Shown in pieces: positions 7,863 through 59,882 of a stretch of DNA of 64,000 nt (positions are counted from its first letter, which is position 1; each line of letters begins with the position of its first letter). The stretch covers positions 1,302,001-1,366,000 of the forward strand of contig NZ_CP093362.1 in assembly GCF_023380225.1 (NCBI RefSeq), written 5' to 3'. The notes beneath the pieces are model-generated. The model worked only from the letters and a program-made list of their open reading frames with translations, made no database searches and had not been told where the DNA came from. Position numbers and translations under genes: made by a program. Source of the stretch: Apilactobacillus apisilvae (GTDB lineage Bacteria; Bacillota; Bacilli; Lactobacillales; Lactobacillaceae).

Positions 7863-10800
7863 ATGCAATACAACAAAAAACAATTTCGTAAATCCAATGA
7901 CAAAAAGATTATGAAAAAGGTTAAGAAGCACTGGGTTGTTGCTTCAATTGCATCATTTGCATTCTTTGGTGCATCAGTTTTCGCTAGTAGTAGTATGAAT
8001 GTTAAGGCTGATGATAAAGATTCTAATAATGTTATTCAATATGAACCTAATAATAATCAAAATTCTAATAATACTGAAAATATTTCATCAAAGAATCAAA
8101 ATGGTGACCAAAGTAATTCTAATGAAGTAACTTTCAATCCTAGACAAAGGCAACCAATTTCTAGTGCCCAGTTACAACAAAGCAATCTTACTTCTATGCA
8201 AGGTGCTCAGACTAATCCATCTACTCAAAATAAAGTTTATACTAATGCTGTTCAACAAAATCAAAGTACAAGTAACAATGATAAAGGTATAAAAGATTGG
8301 CAAAATGGTGTTAAAGATAATACTAATACCAGCTCCGATTATAATAATGCTTATAATTCCGCTAGTCAGGGATTTAAGGACTCAATGAATAGTGATAAGA
8401 ATATTGTTCAAAGCCAGAATAAAAATAATACGAATAATCCTGCGTCAAACAATAATAAGATCAATTCAAATTATCAATCTGGAGTAAATCAATATAATAA
8501 TTATCGAGATGTTATGAATTCTGGAGCTTCAGATGCCTATAATGGTAAAGGTGATAATTCATCATTACAAACTGATACTTCAAGTAAAAATTATTATGAA
8601 GCTGCCTATAATGGTGCTAATAATGCTAAATCTGATTACAATAATGTGACACAAAATGAAGGAACTAGTAATCAAGATTACACAAATTATCAACAATGGT
8701 TAGCAGATAATAATAAAAGTCAAAATGATACTCCACAACAAAATCGAGATAATGTTAAATCTTATAGTGATTACCTAAACGATAAATTCAATTCCAAGGG
8801 TAATGTTAGTGTTCATACTAGCAATTCTGCAGTTGTCCAGGTTGCTAAACCTGATGATAATGCAATTGTTAGTCAACAAAATCAATATAATCAACAACAA
8901 AATTATAATAATAATTCAGGTTATGCACTAGCTTATCAATATGGAATTAATTACTTTTTAGCTAATAAAGGTGCTGAAGATGCTAAAGCTGGTAAATGGA
9001 ATGGAACTAATGGTTCAAATACCATGAAGTCATTCTATCAACCTAGTTCAGGTTCAACTAATCCATATGATCAAGCTTATTTAGGTGCTCAAGCAGCCGT
9101 AAATAAACAAATTAGTCAAACACAATCCGGAACAAATACGACTGTTAATAATTATTCAGGAACCAATAATTCGGCATATTATCAAAGTGGATATAATGAT
9201 GCTGCTAACCAAACTCAAAACGGAACGGTTTATATTGGTAATGCCGTTCAAATGGATAACGTGTTCAAAAATGATATGGCTAACGTTAATTCATTGAAAC
9301 TAGTTAACGATATTGCTTATATGAATTATGACAAGTTTGCATTAACAGCTGTTAAAAATATTAATTCTACTAATTTAGATATCGATGGTCAAAATCATAT
9401 GTTAGATCAAACTGATACTAATTATACTTTTTGGCCCAATAATCCTAACACTAAATTGAATATCCATAATTTTCAGACTATTTATGGTGCCAGTTATTAT
9501 GGACCATTTGCTTTTGATAACACTGGTAATGATAATAACGCAAACACCTATTCTATAACTTACTCTAATATTAATTATATTGGGTCTAAGTTGGTTTCTT
9601 CATATTATAGTGATGTATACGTTAACGGAAGTGTTAATCAAGATGATGTTGATACTTATACTTCACCATTCAATTCAATGGCAACTCAAACTGATAATAT
9701 CTATGGTAATGGTGGTAACTATCAACCAGGAGTGCAAATTAATAATATGATTTTAGGAGCTGGTGCTAAGTATTTCGTAAATACTGCTCAACAAACTGGT
9801 GGAACAACTCTTCAAATTAGGGGTAATTTAACATTAGGCCAAAATTCTACAATGACTCTAATGCCTACTGGTGCTGCTCAAGGTCAAAATAGTCCAGATA
9901 ATGTTAATAATTATGGTATTGATATTCAAAATGCTGATTCATCACTTAATGTCAATAAAGGTGCTACTCTAAATGTTTATCCCGAAACCAAATATGGTCA
10001 ATATGTTTCAGGTATTCATAGCAATGGTAATATTAATATTAATGGCGGAACCATTAATGCAGAAGCATATGGGGAGTTTGCCAATGGAAAAAATGTATTA
10101 ATTTATTCAAATGGTTCTATTGATGTTCTTAATGGTGGTAATTTGAATGTTAAAGTTGCTGGAACAAACAATAACTCAGCTGGTTTAATTAATAATAATT
10201 CTGTTATGAATATTAACAGTGGTGGAACTTTAACTGTTGATGGTAGTAACACTAATGGAGTTGTTAACCTAATTAATGGGAATCAACTTAATGTATATGA
10301 TGTTGGCAATAGGAATGTTAATCTATTAAGAAATTCTAATAATAATAGTTCATTCTCTACTGCTGGTATTAATGGGTACACTGTTCGTGCCTATACTGAT
10401 CCCGCTAAACCTAATGATACTTGGTATTATGACTTCAATATGGATTCAAGCGGAAATTATACTGGTACTGACCAAAATGGTAAGAAAACGACTGGAAATA
10501 TCAATACTCAGTCACTATATATAGCTGCGGTTCCATCGGCATATTTTGTTGGACCAATCTATGTAACCAAAAATTTAAGTGGTAATACCGTAATTAATGG
10601 TTACGCTAGAGTTGCTCAATATAGTTCAACTGCTGGTCCTGTATATATTCAATATGTTGCCGGTAACTCTGATGGACAAAGCATTCCCCAATATACAGAT
10701 ATGCAAACTATTGGGAATCCATCTATTGGTAATAGTTTCTCTAGTCTTGATAAGGATAAGTACAATCAACAAGTTCAAATTAATGGTAAAAATGATTTAA

Positions 10801-13800: not shown

Positions 13801-16800
13801 CTAACTATCAAGGTAGTGATGAGCAAAAACAAGCTTACAATGCTACCTTTGCTGGAATCAAAGCTGCCATGAATGGTCAAGCTCAACCTGATTTGAGTAA
13901 TCAACCTAAGGTATATCAAGATGCATATAATCAAGCTTATCAACAAGCCAAAGCAAATGCTGATAAGATTGCTCAAGGTAATACTCCAACTGATTTAACA
14001 CCTGCCCAAAAGCAAGCTAATGCTGATGCTCAACAAGCAATTACTAATGCTGCTAATGCTGCAAATGATAATAATCCAGCTAATGATGCTAAATACGCTG
14101 GTAATACTAATGCTGATCAAGCATATCAAGGTGCTAAAGCTGGTCTTGCTAACGGTGGAACTGGAAAGATGGATCCTAGCAAAGCAAACAATCCATACTA
14201 TAAAAATGCATTTGATAACGCCCAAAGACAAGCTCAACAAGCTGCTCAAAATGGAGCTAACCAATATGTAAATGGTGAAACTAATAATCCAACGGAATCA
14301 AATAATGCTGGAAAGGCAGCTGATAACTATGGTTATCAACAAGCTCAAAAAGGTTACCAAGCTCAAATGAATGGAACTGCTGATAGTCAAAATAATGATC
14401 CATCATATCAAGCTGGTATTAAAATGGCTAATGCTGCCAATCAAGGAGCTAGTGATGCTAATAATGCTTCTCAACCAGATGCTTCATATAATGGTAGTCC
14501 TGCTCAAAAGCAAGCTTACCAAGCTACCTTTGATGGAACGCAAGCCGCTATGAATGGTCAACCAATTCCAAGTGATTTGAATAAGCAATCACAGGCATAT
14601 CAAGATGCTTACAACAAGGCATATAATGATACTGATCAAAAAGCTAAGGCCAATGCTACTGATATTATTGACGATAAAATTCCTGCTGATTTGTCTAACG
14701 CTCAACAACAAGCTGCTCATCAAGCATCCAAAGTAATGAATGATGCCATTAAAGCTGCTGATGCTAATAATCCAGATAATGATGCACAATATTCAGGCAA
14801 TACTAATGCTGACAAAGCCTATCAAGGTGCTAAAGATGGTTATGCTAATAATGGTAATAATACGATTGACCCTACCAAAGCTAAAGATCCATATTATAAG
14901 AGCGCCTATGACAAAGCTAATAATGATGCTAGACAAGCAGCACAAGCTGGATTAAATGAATTTAGAAATGGTCGTGAAAATAGCAGTTCTCAAGGTCGTA
15001 ATGATGCAATAAATAATGCTCATAATGATGGCTATAATTCAGCTCAAGATGGCTATAATGAACAAAGAAAGAACCAAGTTGATCCATCAAATAACGACCC
15101 ATCATATCAAGCTGGAGTTCAAATGGCAATTGATGAAGCCAATGGTGCTAATGATGCCCAAAATTCAGAACATCCTAAAAAAGATTACCAAGGTAGTTAT
15201 GATCAAAAACAAGCTTATCAAGCTACTTATGATGGGATTGCTGCGGGTGCTAATTCTGCACCAAAGCCATCTGACTTAAATACTAAATCTCGTACTTATC
15301 AAGATGCTTACAATGCAGCTTATAATCAAGCCCAAGCCTCAGCTAATGCTTTAGCAAATGGTGGTCCTAATACAAATTTGAGTCCAGCTGAAAAGACAGT
15401 AATTACTGATGCTAATACTAATGTTGATCAAGCTAAAAAGGCTGCAAATGAAAATAACCCATCTAATGATGACAAATATAACGGTAATACTAATTCTGAT
15501 ATGGCATATCAAGGAATAAAAGATGGCTATGCTAATGGTGGTAACAATCAAATCAACCCTAATAAAGCTAACAATCCATTTTATCGTAATGCCTTTAATG
15601 ATGCTCAGCAAAAAGCAAAAGCAGCCGTTCAGAATGGTTTGAATCAATTTACAAATGGTGATTCAAATACTCCTAATGAAGGAACTCCTGCTGAACAAGC
15701 AGCTAGTCGTAACGCATATAACGATGCTCAAAATATGTATCAACAAACTATGAATGGTGCTAATAACATTGACCATAATAATTTAACTCCAGCTCAAAAG
15801 GCGGGCTATGATAAAGCTAAGAATGTATTGAGTGGATTAAGTGATAATATTAATGGTAAGCAACCTGAAAATAATGATAAAAATTATATGAATGGTTACA
15901 ACACTGCTAAAACAGCAATGGATAATGCTATTAATGATGCTCGTAATGGTAAACATACTTCGAACGTACCTAGTGGCTTGAACCCAGATATTTATAATAA
16001 TATCTATAAAGAAGCTCAAGCTGCATATAATGATGGTATTAGTGGCAAAGCTTCCAATCCAAATACTAATAATGCTATTGATAAGAGTGTATACAGTCAT
16101 GCATACAAGATGGGACAAAACGATATTGTAATTCCATCATCTAATAATGACCTGCATGCTAACACTGTCAATAAACCAAATATTAATCATAATAAAGCTA
16201 ATAAAGGTTTTAATACTCAAGACTTTTACCTTGGTGAAATGAATGCATTGAGAAATATTAAAAATGCTAAAGTATCATCATCTAGCTATAATGATGGTTA
16301 CCGTAATGGTTTACTTGGCTTATCTGGAATGAGAGATGCAGCTAATAAATCATTAATGAAGAAGTTTAGTAATAAACAAGATAAAGCTTCCTATGACGAT
16401 GGATACAGTGGTTACAAGCATGGGATTGCTGCTGCAAAACGTACGATGAAGGCCAACAAACGTTTAAGCAAACATGATTTAGCTGGTAAAAATGCAATTT
16501 ATGTTCATGCATTTAAGCAAGGGATGAAAGTTGAACAACGTCATCAACATAACTTAGGTATTAAGCGTGGAATTGAAAAGGCTAAATCAATGCATGCTGT
16601 GCCTACTAATTTGAACATTACTCATTCATTAACCTATGCAAAATCATACATGAGTGCATATAAACGTGAAATGAAACGTAAGATGCCTAAATACGTTTAC
16701 AATGTTAGAAAGATTTTCACCCACAGTAATGTGAAGTTCACAAGGTCTGATCGTATTAAGGAATATGTAAGAAAGCCAAGATATGACTCTAATATCTTTA

Positions 16801-17141
16801 AAGTTGTGGGTATTGAATACTACAAGAATGGAACACCAAGATATCGTGTTCGTGGTGGTGGTATTGTATCCAAGAGTGGTACTGGTGTAATTGCTGCCGA
16901 TAATAGTGTTGTAAATGTATATTATCAACATAATTTTAAACAAATTAGAGTGATTAAACCAAAGGGTGCATTGGTTCATACTGGGAAGAAATTCAGTAAG
17001 AATAATGTCGCTCGAAGAGCATATCATGGTGAAATCTTTAACGTTGATAAAGTTGTTAACTACAAAGGATTGACCAGATTCTATATTGGTCATGGAGAAT
17101 ATGTAACAGCTAATAAGACTTATGTTGGAAAAGTTAAATAG
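7863..17141 (+). CDS. Giant secreted repeat protein 1 (beta-helix adhesin-like)
   Basis: 3092 residues. Order of parts: a degenerate KxYKxGKxW-like signal peptide (residues 1-50, with KKVKKHWVV before the hydrophobic core); an Asn/Gln/Ser-rich disordered region (50-350); a block shared by all four paralogues (YGINYFLANKGAEDAKAGKW near 360); a pectate-lyase-like beta-helix (about 459-880, with DGQNHMLDQ near 508 and YYGPFAF near 545); a beta-sandwich-like module (about 890-1010); a repeat region (about 1080-2780); a basic tail; and two DUF5776-like wall-binding modules (from about 2941 and 3030, ending GEYVTANKTYV). The repeat units are about 230 residues long and carry YxDAYNxAYxQA and ADxAYQGAKDGYANGG signatures. 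No LPXTG is present and Cys is almost absent. Likely role is a very long surface adhesin or scaffold. The start is ATG after GGATGGGG. Confidence 0.85.
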   Translation: MQYNKKQFRKSNDKKIMKKVKKHWVVASIASFAFFGASVFASSSMNVKADDKDSNNVIQYEPNNNQNSNNTENISSKNQNGDQSNSNEVTFNPRQRQPISSAQLQQSNLTSMQGAQTNPSTQNKVYTNAVQQNQSTSNNDKGIKDWQNGVKDNTNTSSDYNNAYNSASQGFKDSMNSDKNIVQSQNKNNTNNPASNNNKINSNYQSGVNQYNNYRDVMNSGASDAYNGKGDNSSLQTDTSSKNYYEAAYNGANNAKSDYNNVTQNEGTSNQDYTNYQQWLADNNKSQNDTPQQNRDNVKSYSDYLNDKFNSKGNVSVHTSNSAVVQVAKPDDNAIVSQQNQYNQQQNYNNNSGYALAYQYGINYFLANKGAEDAKAGKWNGTNGSNTMKSFYQPSSGSTNPYDQAYLGAQAAVNKQISQTQSGTNTTVNNYSGTNNSAYYQSGYNDAANQTQNGTVYIGNAVQMDNVFKNDMANVNSLKLVNDIAYMNYDKFALTAVKNINSTNLDIDGQNHMLDQTDTNYTFWPNNPNTKLNIHNFQTIYGASYYGPFAFDNTGNDNNANTYSITYSNINYIGSKLVSSYYSDVYVNGSVNQDDVDTYTSPFNSMATQTDNIYGNGGNYQPGVQINNMILGAGAKYFVNTAQQTGGTTLQIRGNLTLGQNSTMTLMPTGAAQGQNSPDNVNNYGIDIQNADSSLNVNKGATLNVYPETKYGQYVSGIHSNGNININGGTINAEAYGEFANGKNVLIYSNGSIDVLNGGNLNVKVAGTNNNSAGLINNNSVMNINSGGTLTVDGSNTNGVVNLINGNQLNVYDVGNRNVNLLRNSNNNSSFSTAGINGYTVRAYTDPAKPNDTWYYDFNMDSSGNYTGTDQNGKKTTGNINTQSLYIAAVPSAYFVGPIYVTKNLSGNTVINGYARVAQYSSTAGPVYIQYVAGNSDGQSIPQYTDMQTIGNPSIGNSFSSLDKDKYNQQVQINGKNDLIPISFTLPAGSPSYNTYGVRLRYGVSGVNEVIANNKYTSSVEGRNQTSDGNLSENNSVLSAGSIDSSNQGTDNALDDLSNQTSDKSSTMYQKDPDYTNAYDSVTAGYNLYGKNPNLGLNDQSNVNSILQNLQASNYDVVNGSFNNIADPSSFIKGYARAKADAQGYIDGANAFDKNGYNQADNSQTNSYKNNYNQAFTFAMNGFQNALDGNKNLPNPNAGDNDPENIAYNAGYNEETNAMNGSKLAAQNQNASVNGQANSYQAGFNAYNQALNDYNTKHQASDVSSQPPLYQKMYNYQFNGICNDVAKGVQDAQNNPNQGDAYNGSPAQKQAYAATVAGNNAQANNSPKPSDFDKQSPIYQNAYNNAYNQAQQAQKNGAALTPGQQAAINNNNNNNQNASSDAAQANPANDSKYQGNSNADMTYQGAKDGYANGGNGSMDTTKTSNQNYVNAFNVAQAKAKTAASNGANQFLSGQNNKPTESTPAEQSADQYGYQQAQKGYNANPVDQSNTDPSYRAGVKAAQDKNTGAQYAQQHPTQGINYQGQNQNQIDAYNATVDGSKAGASGITKPDLSKQSRVYQDAYNSAYQHANDIANRAAAGQLNENNLITPLDRNSFAQGTSDAQNGYNIALENNPTTNDSKYNGTSNIDKAYQGARDGFTDGTTPNSSPKSNDPVYLNEYNRAKNDAAKAANTGAQEFAQGNDKGSSSTSSSNDALSAAQNKGFEQAQTGYRNQIANDVDGNNKNVNYAQGVQAAKDVQSGQELAKTDLSTGLEHPSSIAQSQSFNGSKDGTMDGASGKPMNPKENNDFYNSSYQKAYKNAQYLAQQGAEGNPVDQNKLNNDKMASEAYSQGVNDYNNAYQQALSQNTPDNDGQHTGDSNYDQAYNGSIDGFKAGNNPKSQPTSSNPVYMRAYNQAQQNASRAVTDGINEFKAGKSQTEVSDKNDPVSEAQNTAFNQAKAGYNANPVDSTNKNPGYLAGIQMAKDKNQGISDAQNANQPDPNYQGSDEQKQAYNATFAGIKAAMNGQAQPDLSNQPKVYQDAYNQAYQQAKANADKIAQGNTPTDLTPAQKQANADAQQAITNAANAANDNNPANDAKYAGNTNADQAYQGAKAGLANGGTGKMDPSKANNPYYKNAFDNAQRQAQQAAQNGANQYVNGETNNPTESNNAGKAADNYGYQQAQKGYQAQMNGTADSQNNDPSYQAGIKMANAANQGASDANNASQPDASYNGSPAQKQAYQATFDGTQAAMNGQPIPSDLNKQSQAYQDAYNKAYNDTDQKAKANATDIIDDKIPADLSNAQQQAAHQASKVMNDAIKAADANNPDNDAQYSGNTNADKAYQGAKDGYANNGNNTIDPTKAKDPYYKSAYDKANNDARQAAQAGLNEFRNGRENSSSQGRNDAINNAHNDGYNSAQDGYNEQRKNQVDPSNNDPSYQAGVQMAIDEANGANDAQNSEHPKKDYQGSYDQKQAYQATYDGIAAGANSAPKPSDLNTKSRTYQDAYNAAYNQAQASANALANGGPNTNLSPAEKTVITDANTNVDQAKKAANENNPSNDDKYNGNTNSDMAYQGIKDGYANGGNNQINPNKANNPFYRNAFNDAQQKAKAAVQNGLNQFTNGDSNTPNEGTPAEQAASRNAYNDAQNMYQQTMNGANNIDHNNLTPAQKAGYDKAKNVLSGLSDNINGKQPENNDKNYMNGYNTAKTAMDNAINDARNGKHTSNVPSGLNPDIYNNIYKEAQAAYNDGISGKASNPNTNNAIDKSVYSHAYKMGQNDIVIPSSNNDLHANTVNKPNINHNKANKGFNTQDFYLGEMNALRNIKNAKVSSSSYNDGYRNGLLGLSGMRDAANKSLMKKFSNKQDKASYDDGYSGYKHGIAAAKRTMKANKRLSKHDLAGKNAIYVHAFKQGMKVEQRHQHNLGIKRGIEKAKSMHAVPTNLNITHSLTYAKSYMSAYKREMKRKMPKYVYNVRKIFTHSNVKFTRSDRIKEYVRKPRYDSNIFKVVGIEYYKNGTPRYRVRGGGIVSKSGTGVIAADNSVVNVYYQHNFKQIRVIKPKGALVHTGKKFSKNNVARRAYHGEIFNVDKVVNYKGLTRFYIGHGEYVTANKTYVGKVK
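11980..16200 (+). repeat. About 690-base (230-residue) tandem super-repeats in giant gene 1
   Basis: The landmark ND-x-KYxGN-x-NADxAYQGAKDGYANGG recurs near 12016, 12700, 13400, 14074, 14770 and 15456, that is about every 690 bases. Each unit is diverged at DNA level, so the array is old or under selection rather than freshly copied. Confidence 0.75.
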
Positions 17142-17167
17142 CGTTATGCTGTAAAAAATAAAATAAG

Positions 17168-17210
17168 AGCGGATATATTTAACAAATTATAAATGTATCC
17201 GCTTTCATTT
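17168..17210 (+). terminator. Terminator after giant gene 1
   Basis: AGCGGATATA (17168-17177) pairs with TGTATCCGCT (17194-17203), followed by a T-rich run. Confidence 0.65.
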
Positions 17211-17220
17211 TGTAATATCC

Positions 17221-17250
17221 TTGAAATACTTTTTTCATTTGTACTACACT
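17221..17250 (+). promoter_or_regulatory. Candidate promoter of giant gene 2
   Basis: TTGAAA (17221-17226), 18-base spacer, TACACT (17245-17250). This would give a 5' leader of roughly 130 bases. The region is very AT-rich and other hexamers could serve. Confidence 0.3.
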
Positions 17251-17370
17251 TATGAATGTAACAAAAATTAAGAGTTAAAATAATTTACTAATTTTTTTAA
17301 TAATGGTAAATTTCTAAATATATAATTTATATAATTAAATATATTTTAATATTTAATAATCATTTATAGA

Positions 17371-17389
17371 ACAGGAGTGTCGTTAGTTG
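17371..17389 (+). promoter_or_regulatory. Ribosome site and TTG start of giant gene 2
   Basis: ACAGGAG (17371-17377), then TTG at 17387-17389, read into the conserved leader QYNKKQFNKVNDKK. The same leader begins with ATG in giant genes 1 and 4, which fixes TTG as the start here. Confidence 0.7.
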
Positions 17390-26824: not shown

Positions 26825-26837
26825 TTATTAATAAATA

Positions 26838-26876
26838 AAGGATATATCGCTAATTAAAACGATATATCCTTTTTTC
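26838..26876 (+). terminator. Terminator after giant gene 2
   Basis: Perfect 12-base stem AAGGATATATCG (26838-26849) and CGATATATCCTT (26860-26871), then T-run. Confidence 0.85.
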
Positions 26877-26920
26877 TTAAAATTTAATGAGCAAAATGTT
26901 ATTACTTTAATTTTATATTG

Positions 26921-26990
26921 TGTTATCATTAATAAAACATGTATTTTATGGAGCTACGAAAACCGTCACTGCGGCTTTTGTAGCTTTTTT
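26921..26990 (+). ncRNA. Possible small RNA between giant genes 2 and 3
   Basis: An extended -10-like TGTTATCAT (26921-26929) lies just before a transcript-sized segment ending in a strong terminator. Arms 26952-26965 and 26972-26985 pair over 14 positions with one G-U and one mismatch, loop of 6, then six T. There is no ORF in it. Because the preceding gene already has a terminator at 26838, this second one suggests a separate short RNA or an attenuator for giant gene 3. No -35 is clear. Confidence 0.35.
26952..26990 (+). terminator. Second hairpin terminator upstream of giant gene 3
   Basis: AGCTACGAAAACCG opposite CGGCTTTTGTAGCT with loop TCACTG, then a T-run; about 120 bases before the TTG start of giant gene 3. 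Confidence 0.7.
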
Positions 26991-27048
26991 ACTTTTTTAA
27001 AAATAATTGGAAAAATATGAGCAAATCATTACACTTTTTAATGCTTAT

Positions 27049-27069
27049 GGTGTTAAATTATAGACGTAA
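27049..27069 (+). promoter_or_regulatory. 21-base motif shared upstream of giant genes 3 and 4, copy A
   Basis: GGTGTTAAATT, then two-in-five variable bases, then CGTAA. It matches 37313-37333 at 18 of 21 positions and lies at a similar distance from the start (43 versus 49 bases). It contains TG-N-TAAATT, so it may be an extended -10 region or a regulator site. Confidence 0.35.
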
Positions 27070-27111
27070 TAAAGATATTAATTCATTTATAGAACAGGAG
27101 ATGTCGTTAAA

Positions 27112-37212: not shown

Positions 37213-37231
37213 CTAATTATCTATCTTTTAT

Positions 37232-37271
37232 AAAAAGTCCCAATCTAAATTAATTAGGTTGGGACTTTTTT
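37232..37271 (+). terminator. Terminator after giant gene 3
   Basis: AAAAAGTCCCAA and TTGGGACTTTTT form a perfect 12-base stem with T-run. Confidence 0.9.
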
Positions 37272-37312
37272 ACATATTTAGTAAGCTAATGATTATATTT
37301 TATTTACCATTA

Positions 37313-37333
37313 GGTGTTAAATTGTAATCGTAA
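37313..37333 (+). promoter_or_regulatory. 21-base motif shared upstream of giant genes 3 and 4, copy B
   Basis: Second copy of the motif at 27049 (18 of 21 identical, including GGTGTTAAATT and CGTAA). It lies 49 bases before the start of giant gene 4. Confidence 0.35.
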
Positions 37334-37382
37334 AGTTTTTTATTTAATGGTTCTTCAGCTTATAGAAATGGAGATGTTTTTT

Positions 37383-40300
37383 ATGCAATATAACAAAAAT
37401 AAATTCAATAAAGTTAATGATAAAAAACTGCTTAAGAAGGTGAAAAAAGAGTGGGTAGTCGTATCCATTGCCTCTCTATCCGTCATTAGTGGATTTGCTA
37501 TTTCTGGATCTTTACCTTTGAGTAAAACCTCTAATAATGTTTATGCTGATACATTAGTTAATGAAAAGAATTCTAATCAATTAGATACTTCCCAAAATAA
37601 TGAAAATAGTGATCCTGGAAAGGATACTCATGATACAAGTTCTGTTAAAAAAACGCAATCAATAACAGCTCCTTCAAGTGAAAGGGATAATCAAACACTT
37701 AAAGTAAGTGATGCATCCGGTGCTGGCAACTTAAATGAAGATAAGATGACAATGTCAGCAAGTTCTAATAACTTTGATGATTCTAAGGTTGCACCTTCAT
37801 CAAGTAATAATCAAGTAGGTGATTCTAAATTAACCGAAACGGCCAAAGCTGGTTCTCAAAGTTATAGTAATGGTGAATCTAAGCCATCTACTAATGACAA
37901 TGACCAGCAGGCTCAGTATGATGCTGCTTCTAATGGCTTTAATGATAAATTAAAACAAGGCAACACAACCAATGATAGTCAAGCTAATACTGCTCAACCA
38001 GATGCTTATCAACAAGGGCAAAATTTAGCTGATCAATATAAAAATGAAATGAATCAGGGTGCTCAAGATTATATAAATAATAAGAAAACTGATTATACTG
38101 ATCAGACTCAACAAAATTACTATAATGCATCATATAGTGGTGCCCAAACAGCTTCTAACGCTTATAATCAGTCTACTTCAAATCAAGGAACTAATGGCAA
38201 TTATGATTCATATAATAAGGCTAGTGGCCAGTCATATACTGATTATTCATCTAAGAATACGGCCAAATTAAATAGTCAGAATAATTCGAGTGTAAGATTA
38301 AATGGATCAAGTGTGAATGTTCCTTCATCAGATTCACAAATAATTAATGATGATAAGAAAAATGACAATAGTGTAGCCCAAAATTATGCTGGTCAAGGTG
38401 TCTATAATGATGCTTTTAGGTATGGAATTAATTACTTCTTAGCTAATCAGGGTGCTAATGATGCTAAGTCTGGTAAATGGCAAGGAACTAATTATAATCA
38501 AAATTCATCTAATTATGGAAATACGGCTAAAATTACTAAAGACTTCTATGATAGTAATATTAATGGTGGTACATATGATTCCGCTAAATCTGATGCATAC
38601 TACCAAGCATATGAAGGTGCTAAGCGTGGAATTGCCAATCAATTTAAGGCTGACAATACTTATAATACCGGCTTTATAGGCAGTAATTCTAATTCAACTA
38701 ATAATGATTATACTAATGCTTATAATAGTGTAGTTAATGACAATAAAAATGGAATTGTTTATGTAAGAAATGCTCAACAAATGAACTATGTTGTTACCGG
38801 AGTCACTTCTGGAACTGGTGTAAATAATAGTTTAAATATGCTTTATAACAATAATTCTTCGATTAATAAACCTTTAATTAATACTATTAATTTAGTAAAT
38901 GATGTTAATTTACAGGACGTTACTACTGGTAATTCCGGGTCTGGCGGAACTAATCCTTATACAAATACCAATTTAACAATTAATGGTCAAAATCATATTG
39001 CTGATTTTTATGGAATGCAATATTGTTTACAATATCAAGGAAGCAATAGTTATAATTTTAATATTAAAAATTTCCAAACTGTTTATGGTATAAACTATTA
39101 TGGACCATTTGCAGCTAGTTCTGGATCAATCTATTTTGATAACTTTAATTATGTTGGTCCTCAAATGTTACAATCAACAAATAATAATGTTTACATTAAT
39201 GGCAATGTCAATGCTTATCAAAATTTAGGTAGTTCTAACACTTATAATTCACCATTTCAGCAGAATGCAAAAATGGATGGTAGTGGTAATCAACAAATAC
39301 TTGCTATTAATAATTTGACTTTAGGAGAAAATTCCAACTTTTTTGGTGATGTATCAAATAATACAGGAGGAACTAATGTTCAATTGAACGGGAACCTTAC
39401 TTTAGGTGTGGATTCTAATATGAACCTAATTTCTAGAGGTTCTGGTGGTGATGGAGCTGCTAATAATGGTAATGCGGGAGTTTATTTAACATCTTCAAGC
39501 TCTAAATTAAATGTTAATAAAGGATCTAATCTAAATATAGATACTCAAAAAGCTGGTAGTACTTATGGATCTGCTATATATTCTAGTGGTGGTCAGATTA
39601 ATGTAAATAATGCTAATATTAATATTACTTTAAATGGTAACAATACGAATTCACTACCTGTTTATTTTGCTGGTGGTAATGTTTTAGTTCAAAATGGTGG
39701 TGCCATTAATGTTATCGCTAATGGTGTTAATAATTCTTCAGGAATTTTATATAATTCCGGTGGCAAGATTAATATTGTTAATGGTGGTAACTTAACAATG
39801 GATGCTACTAATTCTACTAATAGTGCATTGATTTATGGTAATGTTAGCGTTAATAACCCTGGATTATCTGGAGTTAACTTAAAAGTTAACAATGATGGTT
39901 CAACTATTTTAGAATCAGGAGCATCCATTACTGCTAATACCATTAACGTTAATGATGTTAATTACTATATGTATAATCTTAACGGAAATGGTAACAATAA
40001 TCTTACTACTATTGACCAAACAAATAATAACAATAATGGAGTTGTTCCAACCTCATTTAAAGGCGATAGTTTATTAATTAGTAGGGTTCCAGCCGCCTAC
40101 TTTGTCGGTCCAGTTAATGTTTCTTACGATTCACAAAGTAAACAAACAACAATTACAGGCAATGCTAAAATATCTGGAACCTATAACAATGGTGATAAAA
40201 CTATATATATTAAGTATTCTGACAATAATAATACTGATATTAGTAATCCTACAATTTCACAGACAACTAATAATAACAATGGTGACACAACTAAATTTAA

Positions 40301-43300
40301 TCAGTCGATGGAAGTTGAGGATAATGGTCAATTAATTCCATTTAAATTTATTTATAATACAAATATTTCACCAACTAGTGTAACAGTATTATTGAAATAT
40401 GGTGTTAGTGGAATTAATTTAAAATACAATACTGCTAATAACCCTAGCACACCTAATGTCTCAACTACTCCTGGTGGTTATGCTATGAATGTTTTAAATT
40501 ATTCTGATGATGCAAATAAAAATTTAACATCTAATTTAACCCAAGTATCAACTGGAAATGAAGGCGATGTTAATAATGGTGCTTCAGATGCAATGATTAT
40601 TAATTCTGGTGGTAACACAGTTAAGCCTAATCCAACTACTATGAGTAATAATAATGATTATTCTAATGGTTATAATTCTGCTGCAGCAGGTTATCAAGCT
40701 TTTGTTGATCAGTTAAGTAATAATAGTGTTGATCCCACTACTTTAAATTATCAGAATAATGAGAGTTATAAAAATGATTACGCTAATAGTGGTTATGCTG
40801 ATCAATTTGAGCAAGGTTTCAATCGGGCTCAACAAGATTACCAAACTGGAATTAATGATGTTAAGAAATCAATTGCCAATGGGCAAATTACGCATACTGA
40901 TAGTACCGCAACAACTAGCAATGGTGATACTTTAAGTCAGATTAATAATGATAGTTATCAAACTGCTTTTAGAACATTTAATAATGGTTATGAATATGGA
41001 ATTAATGGATCATCTTCGGACGGCTTAAATAATCAACAAATGATTGGATTTAATTATGGTAAAAATGTTTTAGTTGGTGCCAGTGCTGATTCATTACCTA
41101 CTGATACTACTGACCCTAATTATCAGGCTCAAAAAGATGGTTATCAATCTGCACAACAAGCTAGAAAAGACTATTATAATAATAGTAATCCACAAACACA
41201 AAACATTACCAAACCTAGTGATATTAAAGTATTATCATCAGATAATATTCCTAATATTCAAGTATATCAATCAGCTTACTATGGTGCACATTTAGCTGGA
41301 ACAGGTAGTAATCGTCCAACTGACGATTTAATAGCACAAAATTCTTATGATGCAGCTAAAGGTAAAGCATCATATTTAAATGGTGATGAGCAACCAACAA
41401 CTGCTAATAACAGTCAATCTTTTGTAAATGGCTATAATGATATTAAACAAGGTTATAGCGATGTAATTGCTAATGGATCAAATACTAAAGAAAAAGATAC
41501 GCCATCAGCTGAATATGATTATGGATATCAAATCGCTATTAATAGTCAAACTGGTTATAATAAGGCAGCTGATTTGGGCAATCCGCTCCCTAACTCGACT
41601 TTGGCTGGAATTAGTGGAAATGATAAATCTGCATATAAAGGTTATGCAGATGCAGTTCAAAAAATAAAATCTGGTAATTTTAGTAACAGTCTTAACAATC
41701 ATATTGCAAAGGGAAGTAATAATGATTATTATGTCTTAGCTTATGATAAAGCCATTGATATTGCTATATTAGCAAACAATGCTGGTAAAAATGCATTTAT
41801 GTCTGGTGGCAATTCAACTACTACTGACGGTAGTAAAACCGAACAGAATGTTTATACTAATGCTTATAATAAGTCTAAAGATGGCTTCCAAGATCAATTA
41901 AATAATCCGAACGCTTCCAATAATAGTAATGATGTCAACTATAGAGATGGTGTTACTCTAGCGAATAATGGAATGGACGGTTATACTCAAGCTATGAACG
42001 ATTACCATAATAATCCTAATGCTTATAGTTATAGTCCTAATGCATCACTAAATAGTTCTAACCAATCTGCTTATAAAGCAACAATTGCTGGACTACAATC
42101 AGCTAATAATCAAAACGATGATAATCGTGGTAAACGTCCTACCGATTATTCTTCTGCATTTTATGATGCAGCTCAAGCATCTGAAAGTGGTAGGATTCAA
42201 GCAATATCAAGTTCGAAAAAGAATAATTTAAGTAATATCAATAATAGTGATTCAAATGCAAATAAATATGTGATGCCAAGATTATATACCAATAGTTATA
42301 ACGCATTTATAAATGGTTATAGTTATGGACAAAATAATCCAACTGATAATAGCCAATCAAAGGATACCAATCCAATCAATGCGGATGCTTATAATCAAGG
42401 TAAAACCGCCGGTCAACAATCTCAAGGTGCTAGTGATTATCTAAACAATAAGCAACCAACAAATGGTGGAACTACTCAATATAGTAATGGTTATCAATAT
42501 GCCAAAGATGGTTATCAAGCTGGAATTACTGGTCAACCAGTTACTGGAATCACAGATGCAGAAAAAAACTCGGCTGAGTATCAAAGAGCTCAAGCAGCTG
42601 GTCATAATGCTAAGAATTATTATCAAAGTGGAGTTAATAAAGCACAAAGTACAACTAATCCACAAAGTAATTCTTCCGATACACCAACTAACGCTGTAGG
42701 TAAAGATGCCTATAATGGTGCCGCTGATGCCATTAATGCAGTTAAAAGAGCTGATACTGATGGTACTGGTGTTAATAATGTGCCTGCTTTAGATAATAAA
42801 AACAGTAGTAATAGTATTGTTTATAACAACGCTTATAATGAAGCCTTGGCAGAAGCCCAAAAGGCAAACCAAGCTGGTCAAAATAAGGCTTTAAATAATG
42901 GGAAAGATACTAGTTATGATTCTAATGTAGCTAATGATGATATCTATAATAATGCCCAAGCTAAAACCAAGACCGGATATAGTGAAGGTATAAATGGTGA
43001 AGATACATCAAAAGTACCAAGTAATTCCAATGAAGCAGCTGGGGTAGATGCAGGTAAAGCCATTCAAAGCTCATATAATCAAGCTGTAAGTGATTATAAT
43101 GATGCAGCAGATAAGAAAGATGCACCAGATACTACTAGCAAAACTGGAATTAATGCAGATATATATAATAATGCCATTCAAGGATTAAAAGATGCTGACG
43201 GTAATGGAAATGATCCAGCTGTTAAGACCAACAAGGACAATCAAAATCCAATTTATGGTTTAGCTAATTCACAAGAGTTAGCTAAGCAAGTAGCATCGAA

Positions 43301-46300
43301 TGTTATTAATAATAATGCCAATAATAGTAAATTGAATACTATTGATAACAATAATACTGATGCCAAGAATTCTTTAAATCCAGATGCTTATAAAGCAATT
43401 TATAATGCCATGATTAATGGTTATAATGATGGGCAAAGTAATCCAACTGATAATAGTAAAGTTTCCGGTGATAATCAAAATAATGTTGATGCCTATGAAA
43501 AAGGCCGCGATGCTGGCCAAAGGTCACAAGCGGTAGCTGATTTGTTAGCTGGTAAAGCAAGTGTTAAAAATGCCACTGATACTTACAATGAAGCTTATCA
43601 ATATGCAAAAGATGGTTATCAAGCTGGAATTACTGGTCAACCGGTTAATGGAATCACTGATGCAGAAAAGAATTCGGCTGAGTATCAAAGAGCTCAAGAA
43701 ACTGGTAAAAATGCTAAGAATGATTATCAAAATGGAATTCAACAAGCGCAAGATAATGCTAATCCAAATGTTAATGATTCCAATGCTCCTAAAGATAATG
43801 ATAATTCAAAGGCTGCCTATAATGCTGTTGCTCAAGCTTTGCAAGATGCTAAACAAGCTAATGTATCCGGTAAAGGATTAGACAGTGTTAATGATTTAGG
43901 TAATGATTATAATTGTAATCCTGTTTATCGAGTTGCTTATAATCAAGCTTTAAATAATATTAAAGCGGCTAATAAACAAGCTAATAGTGATTTTAATGCT
44001 GGAAAGGTATTAAATGAAAATAACGTAACACCTGCTAATAATATGACGAAGGCTTTCTATTCAGACGTTTATAATAATATTCAAAAGGGTTACCAAGAAG
44101 GATTAAGCAATCCTGGTATGACCGAACCAATTGACTCAAATGAACAAAATGGATTTAATAAAGGTAAGGCTGATTCTAGAGGTTATGTTGATGCCATTAA
44201 TGACTTTAATAATGGGACTAGATATGATAATTCTAATCCTGCCAAAGGTGAAACTGAGCCTAGTGCAAAGGCATCTTACCAAGAGACAATGAAGGCGTTA
44301 ACTGATGCTCAAAATGGTAAAAACGATAATGTCAATAATACTTCAGTCTACTCAATTGCTAATGGTCAAGGATTGGGTGCTCATAATGGCTTAGCTGCTG
44401 TTAAACAAAATGGTGGTAGTGTTCCTAATCCAATCATAGTTCCAAGCACACCTAGCGGAATTAACACGACAGCTTATCAAGATGCATATAAAGGTTCATA
44501 TGATGGTTACAACAATAAATTTGATAGTAGCCAAATTAATAATATGCCTTATGTTAATGCCTTTAAACAAGCTGCTCAACAAAAGGGTGCTGATGATTAT
44601 GTAGCTGGTAAGGTTACTGATGATCCCACTAATGAAGCTAACACTAAGTCTGAAAAGGAATATGATGCCAACTATGCCAATGGAGTTAGGGATGCTCAAG
44701 CTGCCTATGCTGGTGATGGTAATGGCAACAAAAACAGTAATCATAACAGTAACGCTTATCAAACCGGAGCTAATGCTTTAATTGATGCTGATAAGGGTTA
44801 TGATGCTGCTAAAACGAATGCTGATATTCCTGATTCCGATGATACTAATGTATATAACGCTTATTGGGGTGCTCAATCAGGTGCTAATACTGGGGATAAA
44901 GTACCAGCAAATGTTAATACCAATTCAGTAGCATATCAGACTGGTAAAAATAAAGCTCAATCAGATTCTTCACAAGGTGCTAACCAATATCTTAGTGATA
45001 AAATTGATGGCAAATCTGATTTAACACCTGAGGGTAATAACAATTTATATAATCAAGGTTACAATAATCAGAAGGCCTTTGAAGATGGTTTAAATAATAC
45101 AGTTGGATCTGATGCATCTAAATATCCTGGAAATGATGGTGTTAAGTCAGCATATCAAAATGGAATCAATGCTTCTTCAGGTTATAAAAAAGGTTATCAA
45201 GAAGCGCAGGTTGGTAACGATAAACCTTCTGCTGATGCTAGTGTTGATTCATATAATGGTTCCAAAGCAGGTTATAACGATGCTAAAAATAGTTCTGGAT
45301 TTCACCCAGATGGTAATTTAACCCAAAAGTCAGCTTATGCTAAGGCTTATGAAGAAGCTATTCAACAGATGAATGCCGGTGCTAGAGAAGTAATAGTCGA
45401 TGGTAATAAACAACCTAATGACAACAATCAAAATCATCAGGCCTTTAACCAAGGATATGATAATCAAAAAGCTTACTCTGCTGGAGTTAATGATAAAGTC
45501 GATCACTCTAATCAATATTCTGGACCATCATTAGTTGCATACCAGAATGGTCAAAAAGCTAAGGAAGCTATTATTGGTGCTGGTTCAGATGCAATTTCAG
45601 GTAAACAAAATACTAATCGTGAAGTTGATCCTGATTCATATGATGGTGCCAAGTCAGGATATATTGATGGATTAAATGGTAATAATTACAATAATATTTC
45701 GACTAAGCCGGCATCTTATCAGCAAGCATATAATAATGCTTATAATGATATTCAAACGGATCGTGCTAATGGTGCTAAAGAATTATTCAAACAAGTTAGC
45801 GGACTTAACGTTGAAAATAATAGCAATGTTAATGGTGCTAAATTACCATTTGATAAGCCACAAAATATTCATGAACAAGCTCAAAATAATGGATTTGTTG
45901 AACAACAAGGATATATTTCCGGAATTAATGGTGGTTCTACAAAAGATAATCCATATACAGACAATCCTTATAAGGATATTTATAACCAAGGTTTGCAACG
46001 TTCTGAAATTACCAAGACTGGTTATCAAGCTGCTCAAGCCAACGGCAATCCAAGTGTAAATGATTCACCTATTAAAAATTCTAATGGGAAAGAAATAACC
46101 GATAATAATGCGCTAGAGGGTTATAAAGCTGTAGCACAAGCATATCAAGATGTTAAAGCCAATAAACCACAATCTAACAATACTAACCAGAGTATTGAAT
46201 ATCAGATGGCTTATGATCATGCTTATAATATGTATAATGGAGTCAAAGCTAAAGGGGTTAGCGACTTTACAAAGGATCCAAGTGCACAAGTTAATAATCC

Positions 46301-47498
46301 ATATGATAAAGCTGATACTCAAACAGCTAAAAACTTATATAATCAAAGTAATGAAGCTGCTCGTGATGGTTACAATTCAGTTATGAATCCTAGTCAAGAT
46401 AAAGCTAGTGATAAAAATAATGTTGATTATATTGCTGGACAGAAATTAGCTAATAGTTTATTAGATGGGATTAAAGCTGCAGCTAATAGTGACAAAAATG
46501 CACCTAGTGATAATGTTGCTAAAGCAGGTTATGATGCTGCTAATGCTGCTATTAAGAATGGTGTAAATGATGCCAAAAAGAGCAATAGTAAAAATAAAGT
46601 GGATCCCGCTAAAGTAGTAGTGCCTACTGATATTCCTTCTGATGCTCGTCAGGCTTATTTGAATGCTTATGAGGGTGCATATAATGGTTATATCAGTGGA
46701 TATAATAATGGACTTCAAAATCCTAATGAATCACAAGATAGCCAATATAATAGTTTACCTGTTTATAAAGCTATTTATGATGCTACCTTTAAACAAGGAA
46801 AGAGTGATATTCCTGCACCAGCTACTTCTGGTAGTATTGAGATTCCAATTGATAATTCTGGTCACCAATTTGTTAAGCCAAATAAAAGTGCCAATAACAA
46901 TCAAAAAACAATTAGTGCTACACAAAAAGCTGGGGAACTAGCTGGTTATAAAGATGGTCTAATGCGTAAATTTAATGCTAAAGCATTAAAGAAATATTCA
47001 TCTGAATATGTTAAAGCTTATAATAATGCATTTAGAAAAGCATTTCAGAAGCATATGCCAAGGTATATTTATAATCTTAAAGGAATGTATTTGCACAATT
47101 CGAAAGGATTTAATAAGAATACTCGTGTTAAGGGGTATTCAAGAGTTACAAGAGCTTTGGCTCATGTCTTTAGGGTTTTAGGCATATCTTATTCTAAGAA
47201 TGGGTTACCAAGATATCGTGTTTCCGGTGGTTACATCACTGCAAATTATAAGTATATTGCAGATGCATATTATCGTGGTAATAAGGTAAATGAACGAGTT
47301 CGTGTAATTAAACCTAAGGGAACTCATGTTTACAGTAGTAAGCAATTTAATAAACATACAATTGTTAAAAAGATTCCTAAGAATTCAATTATTAGAGTTC
47401 AAAAAGTTGAAAAATTAGGTTATATTACTAGATTTTACATTGGCAATGGTCAATATATTTCAAGCAATAAGACAATTGTTAAAAAATTAGGTGAATAA
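37383..47498 (+). CDS. Giant secreted repeat protein 4 (beta-helix adhesin-like)
   Basis: 3371 residues from the ATG at 37383; an ATG further up at 37314 is in frame but only adds leader sequence, whereas 37383 follows TGGAG and begins the conserved MQYNKNKFNKVNDKK. Layout: signal peptide (1-55), Asn/Ser/Gln-rich region, YGINYFLANQGANDAKSGKW near 347, beta-helix with NGQNHIADF near 534, beta-sandwich-like module from about 902, repeats at about 1090-3140, and two DUF5776-like modules (RYIYNLKGMYLHN near 3225 and VRVIKPKGTHVYS near 3306, ending GQYISSNKTIV). Its repeat region is the least regular of the four but contains a recent duplication of about 368 residues. No sortase signal. It is the largest gene of the window together with giant gene 3. 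Confidence 0.85.
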   Translation: MQYNKNKFNKVNDKKLLKKVKKEWVVVSIASLSVISGFAISGSLPLSKTSNNVYADTLVNEKNSNQLDTSQNNENSDPGKDTHDTSSVKKTQSITAPSSERDNQTLKVSDASGAGNLNEDKMTMSASSNNFDDSKVAPSSSNNQVGDSKLTETAKAGSQSYSNGESKPSTNDNDQQAQYDAASNGFNDKLKQGNTTNDSQANTAQPDAYQQGQNLADQYKNEMNQGAQDYINNKKTDYTDQTQQNYYNASYSGAQTASNAYNQSTSNQGTNGNYDSYNKASGQSYTDYSSKNTAKLNSQNNSSVRLNGSSVNVPSSDSQIINDDKKNDNSVAQNYAGQGVYNDAFRYGINYFLANQGANDAKSGKWQGTNYNQNSSNYGNTAKITKDFYDSNINGGTYDSAKSDAYYQAYEGAKRGIANQFKADNTYNTGFIGSNSNSTNNDYTNAYNSVVNDNKNGIVYVRNAQQMNYVVTGVTSGTGVNNSLNMLYNNNSSINKPLINTINLVNDVNLQDVTTGNSGSGGTNPYTNTNLTINGQNHIADFYGMQYCLQYQGSNSYNFNIKNFQTVYGINYYGPFAASSGSIYFDNFNYVGPQMLQSTNNNVYINGNVNAYQNLGSSNTYNSPFQQNAKMDGSGNQQILAINNLTLGENSNFFGDVSNNTGGTNVQLNGNLTLGVDSNMNLISRGSGGDGAANNGNAGVYLTSSSSKLNVNKGSNLNIDTQKAGSTYGSAIYSSGGQINVNNANINITLNGNNTNSLPVYFAGGNVLVQNGGAINVIANGVNNSSGILYNSGGKINIVNGGNLTMDATNSTNSALIYGNVSVNNPGLSGVNLKVNNDGSTILESGASITANTINVNDVNYYMYNLNGNGNNNLTTIDQTNNNNNGVVPTSFKGDSLLISRVPAAYFVGPVNVSYDSQSKQTTITGNAKISGTYNNGDKTIYIKYSDNNNTDISNPTISQTTNNNNGDTTKFNQSMEVEDNGQLIPFKFIYNTNISPTSVTVLLKYGVSGINLKYNTANNPSTPNVSTTPGGYAMNVLNYSDDANKNLTSNLTQVSTGNEGDVNNGASDAMIINSGGNTVKPNPTTMSNNNDYSNGYNSAAAGYQAFVDQLSNNSVDPTTLNYQNNESYKNDYANSGYADQFEQGFNRAQQDYQTGINDVKKSIANGQITHTDSTATTSNGDTLSQINNDSYQTAFRTFNNGYEYGINGSSSDGLNNQQMIGFNYGKNVLVGASADSLPTDTTDPNYQAQKDGYQSAQQARKDYYNNSNPQTQNITKPSDIKVLSSDNIPNIQVYQSAYYGAHLAGTGSNRPTDDLIAQNSYDAAKGKASYLNGDEQPTTANNSQSFVNGYNDIKQGYSDVIANGSNTKEKDTPSAEYDYGYQIAINSQTGYNKAADLGNPLPNSTLAGISGNDKSAYKGYADAVQKIKSGNFSNSLNNHIAKGSNNDYYVLAYDKAIDIAILANNAGKNAFMSGGNSTTTDGSKTEQNVYTNAYNKSKDGFQDQLNNPNASNNSNDVNYRDGVTLANNGMDGYTQAMNDYHNNPNAYSYSPNASLNSSNQSAYKATIAGLQSANNQNDDNRGKRPTDYSSAFYDAAQASESGRIQAISSSKKNNLSNINNSDSNANKYVMPRLYTNSYNAFINGYSYGQNNPTDNSQSKDTNPINADAYNQGKTAGQQSQGASDYLNNKQPTNGGTTQYSNGYQYAKDGYQAGITGQPVTGITDAEKNSAEYQRAQAAGHNAKNYYQSGVNKAQSTTNPQSNSSDTPTNAVGKDAYNGAADAINAVKRADTDGTGVNNVPALDNKNSSNSIVYNNAYNEALAEAQKANQAGQNKALNNGKDTSYDSNVANDDIYNNAQAKTKTGYSEGINGEDTSKVPSNSNEAAGVDAGKAIQSSYNQAVSDYNDAADKKDAPDTTSKTGINADIYNNAIQGLKDADGNGNDPAVKTNKDNQNPIYGLANSQELAKQVASNVINNNANNSKLNTIDNNNTDAKNSLNPDAYKAIYNAMINGYNDGQSNPTDNSKVSGDNQNNVDAYEKGRDAGQRSQAVADLLAGKASVKNATDTYNEAYQYAKDGYQAGITGQPVNGITDAEKNSAEYQRAQETGKNAKNDYQNGIQQAQDNANPNVNDSNAPKDNDNSKAAYNAVAQALQDAKQANVSGKGLDSVNDLGNDYNCNPVYRVAYNQALNNIKAANKQANSDFNAGKVLNENNVTPANNMTKAFYSDVYNNIQKGYQEGLSNPGMTEPIDSNEQNGFNKGKADSRGYVDAINDFNNGTRYDNSNPAKGETEPSAKASYQETMKALTDAQNGKNDNVNNTSVYSIANGQGLGAHNGLAAVKQNGGSVPNPIIVPSTPSGINTTAYQDAYKGSYDGYNNKFDSSQINNMPYVNAFKQAAQQKGADDYVAGKVTDDPTNEANTKSEKEYDANYANGVRDAQAAYAGDGNGNKNSNHNSNAYQTGANALIDADKGYDAAKTNADIPDSDDTNVYNAYWGAQSGANTGDKVPANVNTNSVAYQTGKNKAQSDSSQGANQYLSDKIDGKSDLTPEGNNNLYNQGYNNQKAFEDGLNNTVGSDASKYPGNDGVKSAYQNGINASSGYKKGYQEAQVGNDKPSADASVDSYNGSKAGYNDAKNSSGFHPDGNLTQKSAYAKAYEEAIQQMNAGAREVIVDGNKQPNDNNQNHQAFNQGYDNQKAYSAGVNDKVDHSNQYSGPSLVAYQNGQKAKEAIIGAGSDAISGKQNTNREVDPDSYDGAKSGYIDGLNGNNYNNISTKPASYQQAYNNAYNDIQTDRANGAKELFKQVSGLNVENNSNVNGAKLPFDKPQNIHEQAQNNGFVEQQGYISGINGGSTKDNPYTDNPYKDIYNQGLQRSEITKTGYQAAQANGNPSVNDSPIKNSNGKEITDNNALEGYKAVAQAYQDVKANKPQSNNTNQSIEYQMAYDHAYNMYNGVKAKGVSDFTKDPSAQVNNPYDKADTQTAKNLYNQSNEAARDGYNSVMNPSQDKASDKNNVDYIAGQKLANSLLDGIKAAANSDKNAPSDNVAKAGYDAANAAIKNGVNDAKKSNSKNKVDPAKVVVPTDIPSDARQAYLNAYEGAYNGYISGYNNGLQNPNESQDSQYNSLPVYKAIYDATFKQGKSDIPAPATSGSIEIPIDNSGHQFVKPNKSANNNQKTISATQKAGELAGYKDGLMRKFNAKALKKYSSEYVKAYNNAFRKAFQKHMPRYIYNLKGMYLHNSKGFNKNTRVKGYSRVTRALAHVFRVLGISYSKNGLPRYRVSGGYITANYKYIADAYYRGNKVNERVRVIKPKGTHVYSSKQFNKHTIVKKIPKNSIIRVQKVEKLGYITRFYIGNGQYISSNKTIVKKLGE
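42330..43830 (+). repeat. 1104-base internal duplication in giant gene 4
   Basis: The DNA from about 42507 (encoding DGYQAGITGQPVTGITDAEK) recurs from 43611 with very few changes, exactly 1104 bases (368 codons) later. Flanking NPTDNS and AGQxSQ segments recur at the same offset, so this is a whole super-unit duplication. Confidence 0.8.
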
Positions 47499-47927: not shown

Positions 47928-47963
47928 AAAGCAGGATGATTTTTTTAATCATCCTGCTTTTTT
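47928..47963 (+). terminator. Terminator after the small acidic protein
   Basis: AAAGCAGGATGAT and ATCATCCTGCTTT, perfect 13-base stem, T-run. Confidence 0.9.
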
Positions 47964-53725: not shown

Positions 53726-53870
53726 AATAATACCTCCTTATTTATAATTCAATTCTACTATTTTGTAGCTAAATGCAAAGAAAATACTATTTTATTTAGT
53801 AATAAAATTAAAAACATGCAGCAATATTATGATTATTAGCCAAGTCTAAGATATTCATGTTGTTTTCATG

Positions 53871-53876
53871 TATAAT
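53871..53876 (+). promoter_or_regulatory. -10 element of the type I toxin mRNA
   Basis: Perfect TATAAT about 100 bases before the toxin start, immediately before the 5' complementary element at 53881. No good -35 is visible. Confidence 0.5.
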
Positions 53877-53976
53877 ATTTGAGTAGAGAAGTTAAGGCGG
53901 TGGCTACGCCAAGGAAGTGGTGCGTATGGTTTTATAACTGTATTATTCATTGATCCTAGCGAAAGGAGTAGCCAAA

Positions 53977-54111: not shown

Positions 54112-54161
54112 TATCATTATATAAAATTCGATAGTAGCCACCGTCTTAAACGGCTCTACTT

Positions 54162-54192: not shown

Positions 54193-54223
54193 TTTATATT
54201 CACAGTATATAATAACTATAAAT

Positions 54224-59872: not shown

Positions 59873-59882
59873 TATAATTAAT

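Follow-up and report, generated by a model that had tools for sequence, protein, structure and literature searches.

What four giant surface-protein genes do for a bacterium with a 1.55-Mb genome, and how such genes change over time, is the question raised by a 64,000-nucleotide stretch of Apilactobacillus apisilvae DNA (NCBI RefSeq NZ_CP093362.1, positions 1,302,001 to 1,366,000; hereafter the window), part of contig 1 of a three-contig assembly that is 98% complete. The four genes, G1 to G4, stand in tandem and belong to a published giant family of bee and flower lactic acid bacteria. We consider it probable that each encodes a secreted, stalked, wall-held adhesin, and that heads and stalks have been recombined against the C-terminal anchors. 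Comparison of sequences demonstrates the mosaic history itself, not what caused it.

Four open giant genes of a published family

The four long same-strand genes claimed by the original prediction, which was made from the letters alone, are confirmed as open reading frames (ORFs) on the + strand whose sole stop is the terminal one: G1 (7863..17141, ATG start, 3092 residues, DUF5776 at 52.3 bits), G2 (17387..26824, 3145 residues), G3 (27112..37212, 3366 residues) and G4 (37383..47498, 3371 residues). Both G2 and G3 start with TTG. The open frame of G4 begins at GTG 37314 (37314-47498, 3394 residues from there), and the gene is best started at ATG 37383 because the motif QYNK recurs at all four giant starts. 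DUF5776 exceeds the Pfam cut-off in all four, and in no other protein of this genome. The predicted richness in Tyr, Ala, Gly and Asn holds (Asn 14-16%, Ala 10-12%, Gly 8-10%, Tyr 6-7%), with serine at 8.2-10.8% overall. Long local alignments between the paralogues reach 26-35% identity, so G1 to G4 are not recent copies; over the repeats and C-terminal end, G2 and G3 resemble each other most.

The link to A. kunkeei that the prediction made is right and published (PMC4494060; PMC10496945; PMC12863079). According to PMC12863079, Giant1-5 of A. kunkeei and its relatives share the architecture of G1 to G4, except that Giant5 of A. kunkeei is without solenoid, and A. apisilvae, A. quenuiae, A. 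timberlakei and A. micheneri likewise have giant clusters close to rlmD; the A. apisilvae cluster is given as four consecutive genes with stated lengths of 2,500-5,500 amino acids, a range that suits G1 to G4 poorly. The paper also reports synonymous divergence (dS) 4-8 times the nonsynonymous (dN) in A. kunkeei giants. Like Giant1-3, which A. kunkeei shares with further fructophilic lactic acid bacteria (PMC12863079; PMC4494060), G1 to G4 form a tandem cluster near rlmD and combine a signal peptide, an SRRP-like (serine-rich repeat protein-like) N-terminal solenoid, an Ig-like sandwich and a DUF5776/SH3b end; the alpha-helical repeats of Giant1-3 may have a counterpart in the helices of a low-confidence model. 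Unlike the A. kunkeei group giants, they are short (about 3.1-3.4 against mostly 4.6-8.4 thousand residues). The setting also differs from Giant1-3 systems: this genome yields no fifth DUF5776 protein over cut-off and no sortase, and the annotation of the 7.8 kb upstream of the cluster lists no purB/pyrB.

Reading frames broken in most relatives would have counted against the prediction, and this was not seen. With one genome per species, 14 of the 16 genus genomes contain head matches, 48 in all and none with an internal stop, a count that concerns heads only. There are exceptions: the signal end is missing in 3 of the 39 non-window proteins (P0017, P0023 and P0028), and in A. micheneri Hlig3 a frame break, either real or due to a sequencing error, separates the N-terminal part of the first giant gene from the head (locus L008, about 9880-9960); P0006 is an intact relative. 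A broader head profile finds matches in 43 of 251 family genomes and 14 of 40 genera, many of them weak and some with stops. Two genomes of another genus, G046 and G080 (genus g32), have five head matches each, in open frames of up to 10,557 residues.

Head, stalk and anchor

The common order of parts claimed for the four proteins is borne out as signal region, low-complexity stretch, solenoid, sandwich, repeats and C-terminal end, with a structure model of the head for G1 only. The G1 head, a beta-solenoid plus beta-sandwich, lies at 9159..10892 on the + strand (profile range, amino acids 433-1010). Its model (9150-10892) is confident, with a predicted local distance difference test score (pLDDT) of 86.4 and a predicted template modelling score (pTM) of 0.86, and adopts an SRRP-like beta-solenoid fold that matches the binding region of Limosilactobacillus reuteri SRRP (PDB 5ny0, 5nxk). 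The shared features are a right-handed solenoid head on a long wall protein (PMC6973325, available part); identity is only 15-20%, and serine-rich repeats, sortase and a second SecA were not found here. Profile ranges also place the + strand heads of G2 (18788..20488, amino acids 468-1034), G3 (28390..30351, amino acids 427-1080) and G4 (38688..40424, amino acids 459-1037 counted from GTG 37314). These score 575-634 bits against the head profile with bias correction off, G2 to G4 being themselves among the sequences that built it. Against PDB sequences, the head profile gave a single match, an antibody chain at E 0.28.

Anchors were located by alignment at 16506..17138 (G1), 26189..26821 (G2), 36565..37209 (G3, 61% identical to the G2 anchor) and 46872..47495 (G4), all on the + strand; genome search and DUF5776 also mark those of G1, G2 and G4. 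As to the claim of two wall-binding modules in each protein, DUF5776, above its cut-off in every one of the four, is counted as two stretches in G1 and G4 and as one in G2 and G3, while the model of the G2 stalk and anchor has two beta modules at the C-terminal end. In the repeat region of that model, helices recur about 28 residues apart at a pLDDT of only about 40-70, and Pfam lists no Ebh-type helical matrix-binding family for the array (E<=1 for G1 to G3, E<=0.1 for G4).

The predicted anchor resembles the SH3b-type domain of Bcs3, the Hib capsule polymerase (PDB 8a0m), over 72 columns at a root-mean-square deviation of 2.0 and probability 1.00, although the Foldseek E-values, from 0.077, are not significant. 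In Bcs3, a Gram-negative capsule-making enzyme unlike G1 to G4, the similar domain holds a fragment of ribose-ribitol-phosphate polymer (PMC10299916, available part). The available text of PMC12208459 calls DUF5776 SH3-related, with its binding remaining to be formally established; there enterococcal AtlE, with DUF5776/GW ends, has a C-terminal DUF5776 that is diverse between strains of one species, although AtlE is a muramidase and no giant adhesin. The C-terminal end of G1 to G4 may thus bind a wall polymer.

Heads and anchors follow different trees

The first gene is one mosaic. Among 12 aligned first-gene proteins, P0002 and P0003 share 71% identity with window G1 in residues 131-430, 75-76% in the solenoid and 56-60% in the repeats, and their solenoids are only 51-53% identical to that of P0006, which is likewise labelled A. 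micheneri. The anchors of this pair share 81-96% identity with the remaining four from A. micheneri and 61% with that of the window. By the approximately unbiased test (p-AU), head data reject an A. micheneri clade (1.9e-5), as do repeat data (4.6e-4), and anchor data reject the grouping of the window with P0002 and P0003 (0.0019). Between P0002 and P0036, identity in 40-residue steps climbs from 25 to 45, 72 and 95% between residues 2640 and 2800 of 3238. P0028, whose longest contig equals that of P0003 in length (123,593), has an anchor of the A. micheneri type, which favours the label.

The other genes show the same kind of conflict. In quick trees of 35 heads and 41 anchors, the G2 and G3 heads fall in different deep groups and the two anchors pair as sisters (support 91). 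In tests on the 31 rows common to both sets, the G2+G3 pairing is rejected by heads (p-AU 1.1e-11), and anchors reject both the G2-head clade (1.4e-5) and a G3-head group of eight (1.5e-66). In A. micheneri, six proteins (P0017, P0020, P0022, P0024, P0027 and P0028) have heads of three lineages on anchors that are 72-91% mutually identical; as a clade they are rejected by heads (1e-80) and allowed by anchors (0.26). Beyond the genus, the Philodulcilactobacillus protein P0014 has a head nearest to that of G3 (48%) and an anchor that groups with other Philodulcilactobacillus proteins (support 98), including P0021, whose head is DUF285.

Across the genus, the 48 matches represent 47 heads, one being in two pieces, of which 37 could be paired with an anchor; the other 10 lay at contig ends or had C-termini matched only in pieces. 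Heads at most 40% identical occur with anchors at least 60% identical in 16 of the resulting 666 comparisons, 12 of these falling among a few second-position genes of the A. kunkeei group and so not independent; the extreme case, from the A. kunkeei genomes G003 and G005, joins 37% heads with 96% anchors. The reverse, heads of at least 55% with anchors of at most 55%, appears in five comparisons, every one with G002 (for example, 62% head and 50% anchor). Unlike heads on alike anchors are also found within single genomes (head/anchor identity 35/70% in G002, 30/66% in A. micheneri, 29/66% in A. timberlakei and 31/61% in the window); in all four, heads reject the pairing (p-AU 2e-5 to 0.013), and the anchors are sisters with supports of 100, 87, 64 and 92, respectively.

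Heads themselves form old lineages. In the tree of 48 heads, a single A. micheneri gene joins each of G1 (support 100), G2 (91) and G4 (94), the G1 group including also one A. timberlakei and one A. quenuiae gene, and G3 falls in a group of eight (support 98) with A. micheneri's fourth gene. By position, the A. micheneri heads run G1, G3, G2 and G4 type. Orthologous heads of the window and A. micheneri are 49, 39, 40 and 42% identical from G1 to G4, against 91% for rlmD.

These comparisons rest on defined samples. Scoring in the protein searches was confined to about 8,000 candidates with the most words in common, and the 42 proteins therefore do not comprise every relative. L024 (frame change, eight stops) was dropped from the first head tree, P0018 and P0019 from the tests on 31 shared rows, quen_L072 and ozen_L039 from the one-genome-per-species tests, and P0010 and P0011 from the anchor set; the tree of 48 heads, those behind the tests on 31 shared rows and those of head/anchor pairs were likewise quick trees. 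P0012, P0021, P0023, P0030, P0032, P0036, P0038 and P0041 are not in the 35-head tree, no head having been detected in the initial profile run. P0012, P0030 and P0032 were considered as headless and rejected as such (506, 104 and 257 bits with bias correction off). For P0036, P0038 and P0041 no solenoid can be recognised: they score 14-27 bits, and all others except P0021 at least 103 (bias correction off). The sequence of P0023 starts inside the head.

Parts of this picture have precedents in the available literature. Similarity patterns that differ among the N-terminal, central and C-terminal parts were noted for the first A. kunkeei giant gene (PMC4494060), and in PMC12863079 solenoids are reported to have been exchanged with Fructobacillus, further exchange is proposed inside each of the two genera as well as between them, and intragenic recombination and lower dS are described at the C-terminal ends of giant4a/5a. 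In the open-licence literature searched, we found neither the head-versus-anchor conflict nor the solenoid-less first-gene alleles or the Philodulcilactobacillus members.

A probable wall-held adhesin and its alternatives

The long-reach adhesin or scaffold system proposed in the prediction is supported in part. Taken together, the SRRP-like head fold and an SH3-like end, a match that is not significant, make a wall-held adhesin the best reading. Judging from fold and gene content, such a long-reach, carbohydrate-binding protein would leave the cell by the ordinary Sec route, directed by its signal peptide, and its SH3-like/DUF5776 end would bind wall polymer non-covalently. The Tyr/Ala/Gly/Asn array, with its short helices about 28 residues apart in the low-confidence model, may hold the head off the wall, where the solenoid could bind carbohydrate or glycoprotein from a plant, a bee or another cell nearby. 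Incompatible trees show that heads with stalks and anchors were recombined between strains, species and paralogues, so strains would differ in the heads that they display.

Several results weigh against this reading. Reassortment is not general: anchors reach 60% identity in only 5 of 38 same-genome pairs, one of which has alike heads too, and the G1 and G4 anchors share 33% identity between themselves and 33-46% with the G2 and G3 anchors. For heads under 36% identical, the same-genome anchor median is 43% (n = 29) against 38% (n = 462; p 0.013, from non-independent pairs). General concerted evolution of anchors was rejected as a rule, given a same-genome mean anchor identity of 46.6% (n = 38 pairs) and no more than a small shift left for pairs with unlike heads. 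Several of the groups put to the test were picked with the trees already in view. Anchor data also weakly reject a strict A. micheneri clade (p-AU 0.039) because P0005 nests among the A. micheneri rows, and the species of P0002 and P0003 (A. micheneri) are NCBI labels, not genome-verified. The stalk/anchor model is poor (pLDDT 62.8, pTM 0.37), its PDB matches being not significant (best E 0.027). Finally, PMC12863079, in its available text, saw no recent gene conversion among A. kunkeei giant paralogues and found SRRP ligand residues not conserved in A. kunkeei heads.

The head/anchor mismatch could in principle be an artefact of short, fast-evolving anchors and mislabelled strains. The anchor tree does have several long branches, three of its four sister-anchor pairs have supports of 64-92, and the strain labels are unverified. 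We regard this as unlikely, since the rejections run in both directions, the gaps are very large (96% anchor with 37% head, and the reverse 62% with 50%) and the breakpoint is sharp. The giants may also serve otherwise than as adhesins. They could be mainly released, as fibres of an extracellular matrix or scaffold that the anchor holds only for a time. Cell-free pellets of A. kunkeei contain giants, and some particles in these pellets are joined by filament-like links of about 6 nm (PMC10496945, available part), the connection of links to giants being a guess, and no sortase was found in the window's genome; however, conserved DUF5776 ends score over cut-off in all four giants, and A. kunkeei giants are also in whole-cell lysate, two of them in PMC10496945 and all five, in both fractions, in the available text of PMC12863079. 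Mainly shed fibres therefore seem improbable to us, if a little less so than an artefact. There is a smaller chance still that the giants form a long coat keeping phages, bacteriocins and antagonists off the wall, with heads varying as attackers adapt; heads do diverge far beyond the flanks (39-49% against 91% for rlmD) and bodies are exchanged, but the head fold is nearest to a carbohydrate-binding adhesin, and quick head divergence equally fits a change of ligand.

That G1 to G4 are true SRRPs, exported by accessory Sec, glycosylated and linked by sortase, is very hard to credit. They share the SRRP head fold, G1 has a weak KxYKxGKxW-like signal (PF19258, 21.0 bits, under the cut-off of 23.6; not listed for G2 and G3 at E<=1 or for G4 at E<=0.1), and an SdgB/GtfA-like glycosyltransferase gene (GT4, 51749-53269; best NCBIfam match SdgB, 219.7 bits against a cut-off of 800) lies 4-6 kb downstream of the cluster. 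The idea is already contradicted by the missing sortase and second SecA: the genome has one SecA over cut-off, a second match being weak (19.9 bits, under 24.6), and at 98% completeness it gives no sortase match. Serine at 8-11% and the lack of serine-rich repeats also led us to reject SRRP identity. GT4 was rejected as a dedicated adhesin glycosyltransferase: relatives of at least 207 bits occur in 15 of the 16 genus genomes, including the window's and two without a head match, G010 and G014, whereas the best in four-head A. micheneri G006 reaches 37 bits. Since its distribution does not match that of heads, we claim no GT4-giant link. Sortase is present in 12 of the 16 genus genomes and was not found in G010, A. 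micheneri, A. timberlakei or the window's genome, the last three being therefore giant-bearing genomes without it. In seven genomes of the A. kunkeei group (G001, G002, G003, G005, G007, G013 and G015), the distance between a sortase gene and the closest giant head is about 7-14 kb.

Genomic setting of the cluster

The giant cluster sits in one chromosomal slot common to A. apisilvae and A. micheneri. Its conserved neighbour rlmD (48487..49890, - strand, NCBIfam equivalog above cut-off) is 90-91% identical in the three nearest genomes, A. micheneri Hlig3 (G006), A. timberlakei HV_12 (G012) and A. quenuiae HV_6 (G009). Ten of 18 tested window flank genes were found within 64 kb of G006, in matching order around its four giants; the other eight were not found in that stretch. 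Upstream, an NlpC/P60 and GW wall protein with a weak DUF5776-like stretch is encoded at 5556..6551 (+ strand).

Within the cluster, the low-complexity stretch of G3 contains an in-frame tandem array (27289..27622, + strand; 48 bp x 7, 99% matches). Terminator-like stem-loops follow G1 (17166..17205, + strand), G2 (26837-26872, listed on the - strand) and G4 (47928-47960), the count of such sites being not above shuffles. A stem-loop and T-run in the G2-G3 leader (26951-26985), seen once in the window, could be a terminator or a regulator. No Rfam family reaches its gathering score in the giant genes.

Downstream, Rfam matches to rli28 (+ strand, 55.4 bits) and RatA antitoxin RNA (- strand, 59.3 bits) at 53862-54207, both over gathering scores, mark a possible type I toxin-antitoxin pair. 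A 210-residue ORF at 54523-55155 weakly resembles sigma-70 region 2, its 21.9 bits falling below the cut-off of 24. The interval 56942-63999 encodes four secreted proteins (709, 231 and 483 residues, and one cut by the window end) whose signal peptides resemble one another and which appear to be a second tandem family of surface proteins; the 231-residue member has a GW wall domain over cut-off. Among their genes, at 61804-63397, a resolvase-like ORF, judged by eye, overlaps an OrfB/TnpB-like transposase gene and resembles an IS607-type element.

What reassortment would mean

As a tentative extension that we hold at somewhat less than even odds, the giants could form a cassette system in which heads and stalks travel among strains, species and genera and persist on an anchor that fits the recipient's wall polymer, the anchor being a fixed "socket" and the head set, or its absence, a changeable surface repertoire. 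If true, head/anchor reassortment would help to explain the usefulness of 40-90 kb of giant genes in small genomes. The match of anchor to wall could then be tested directly with short recombinant domains, and bee and flower bacteria would hold a natural set of interchangeable, probably carbohydrate-binding heads.
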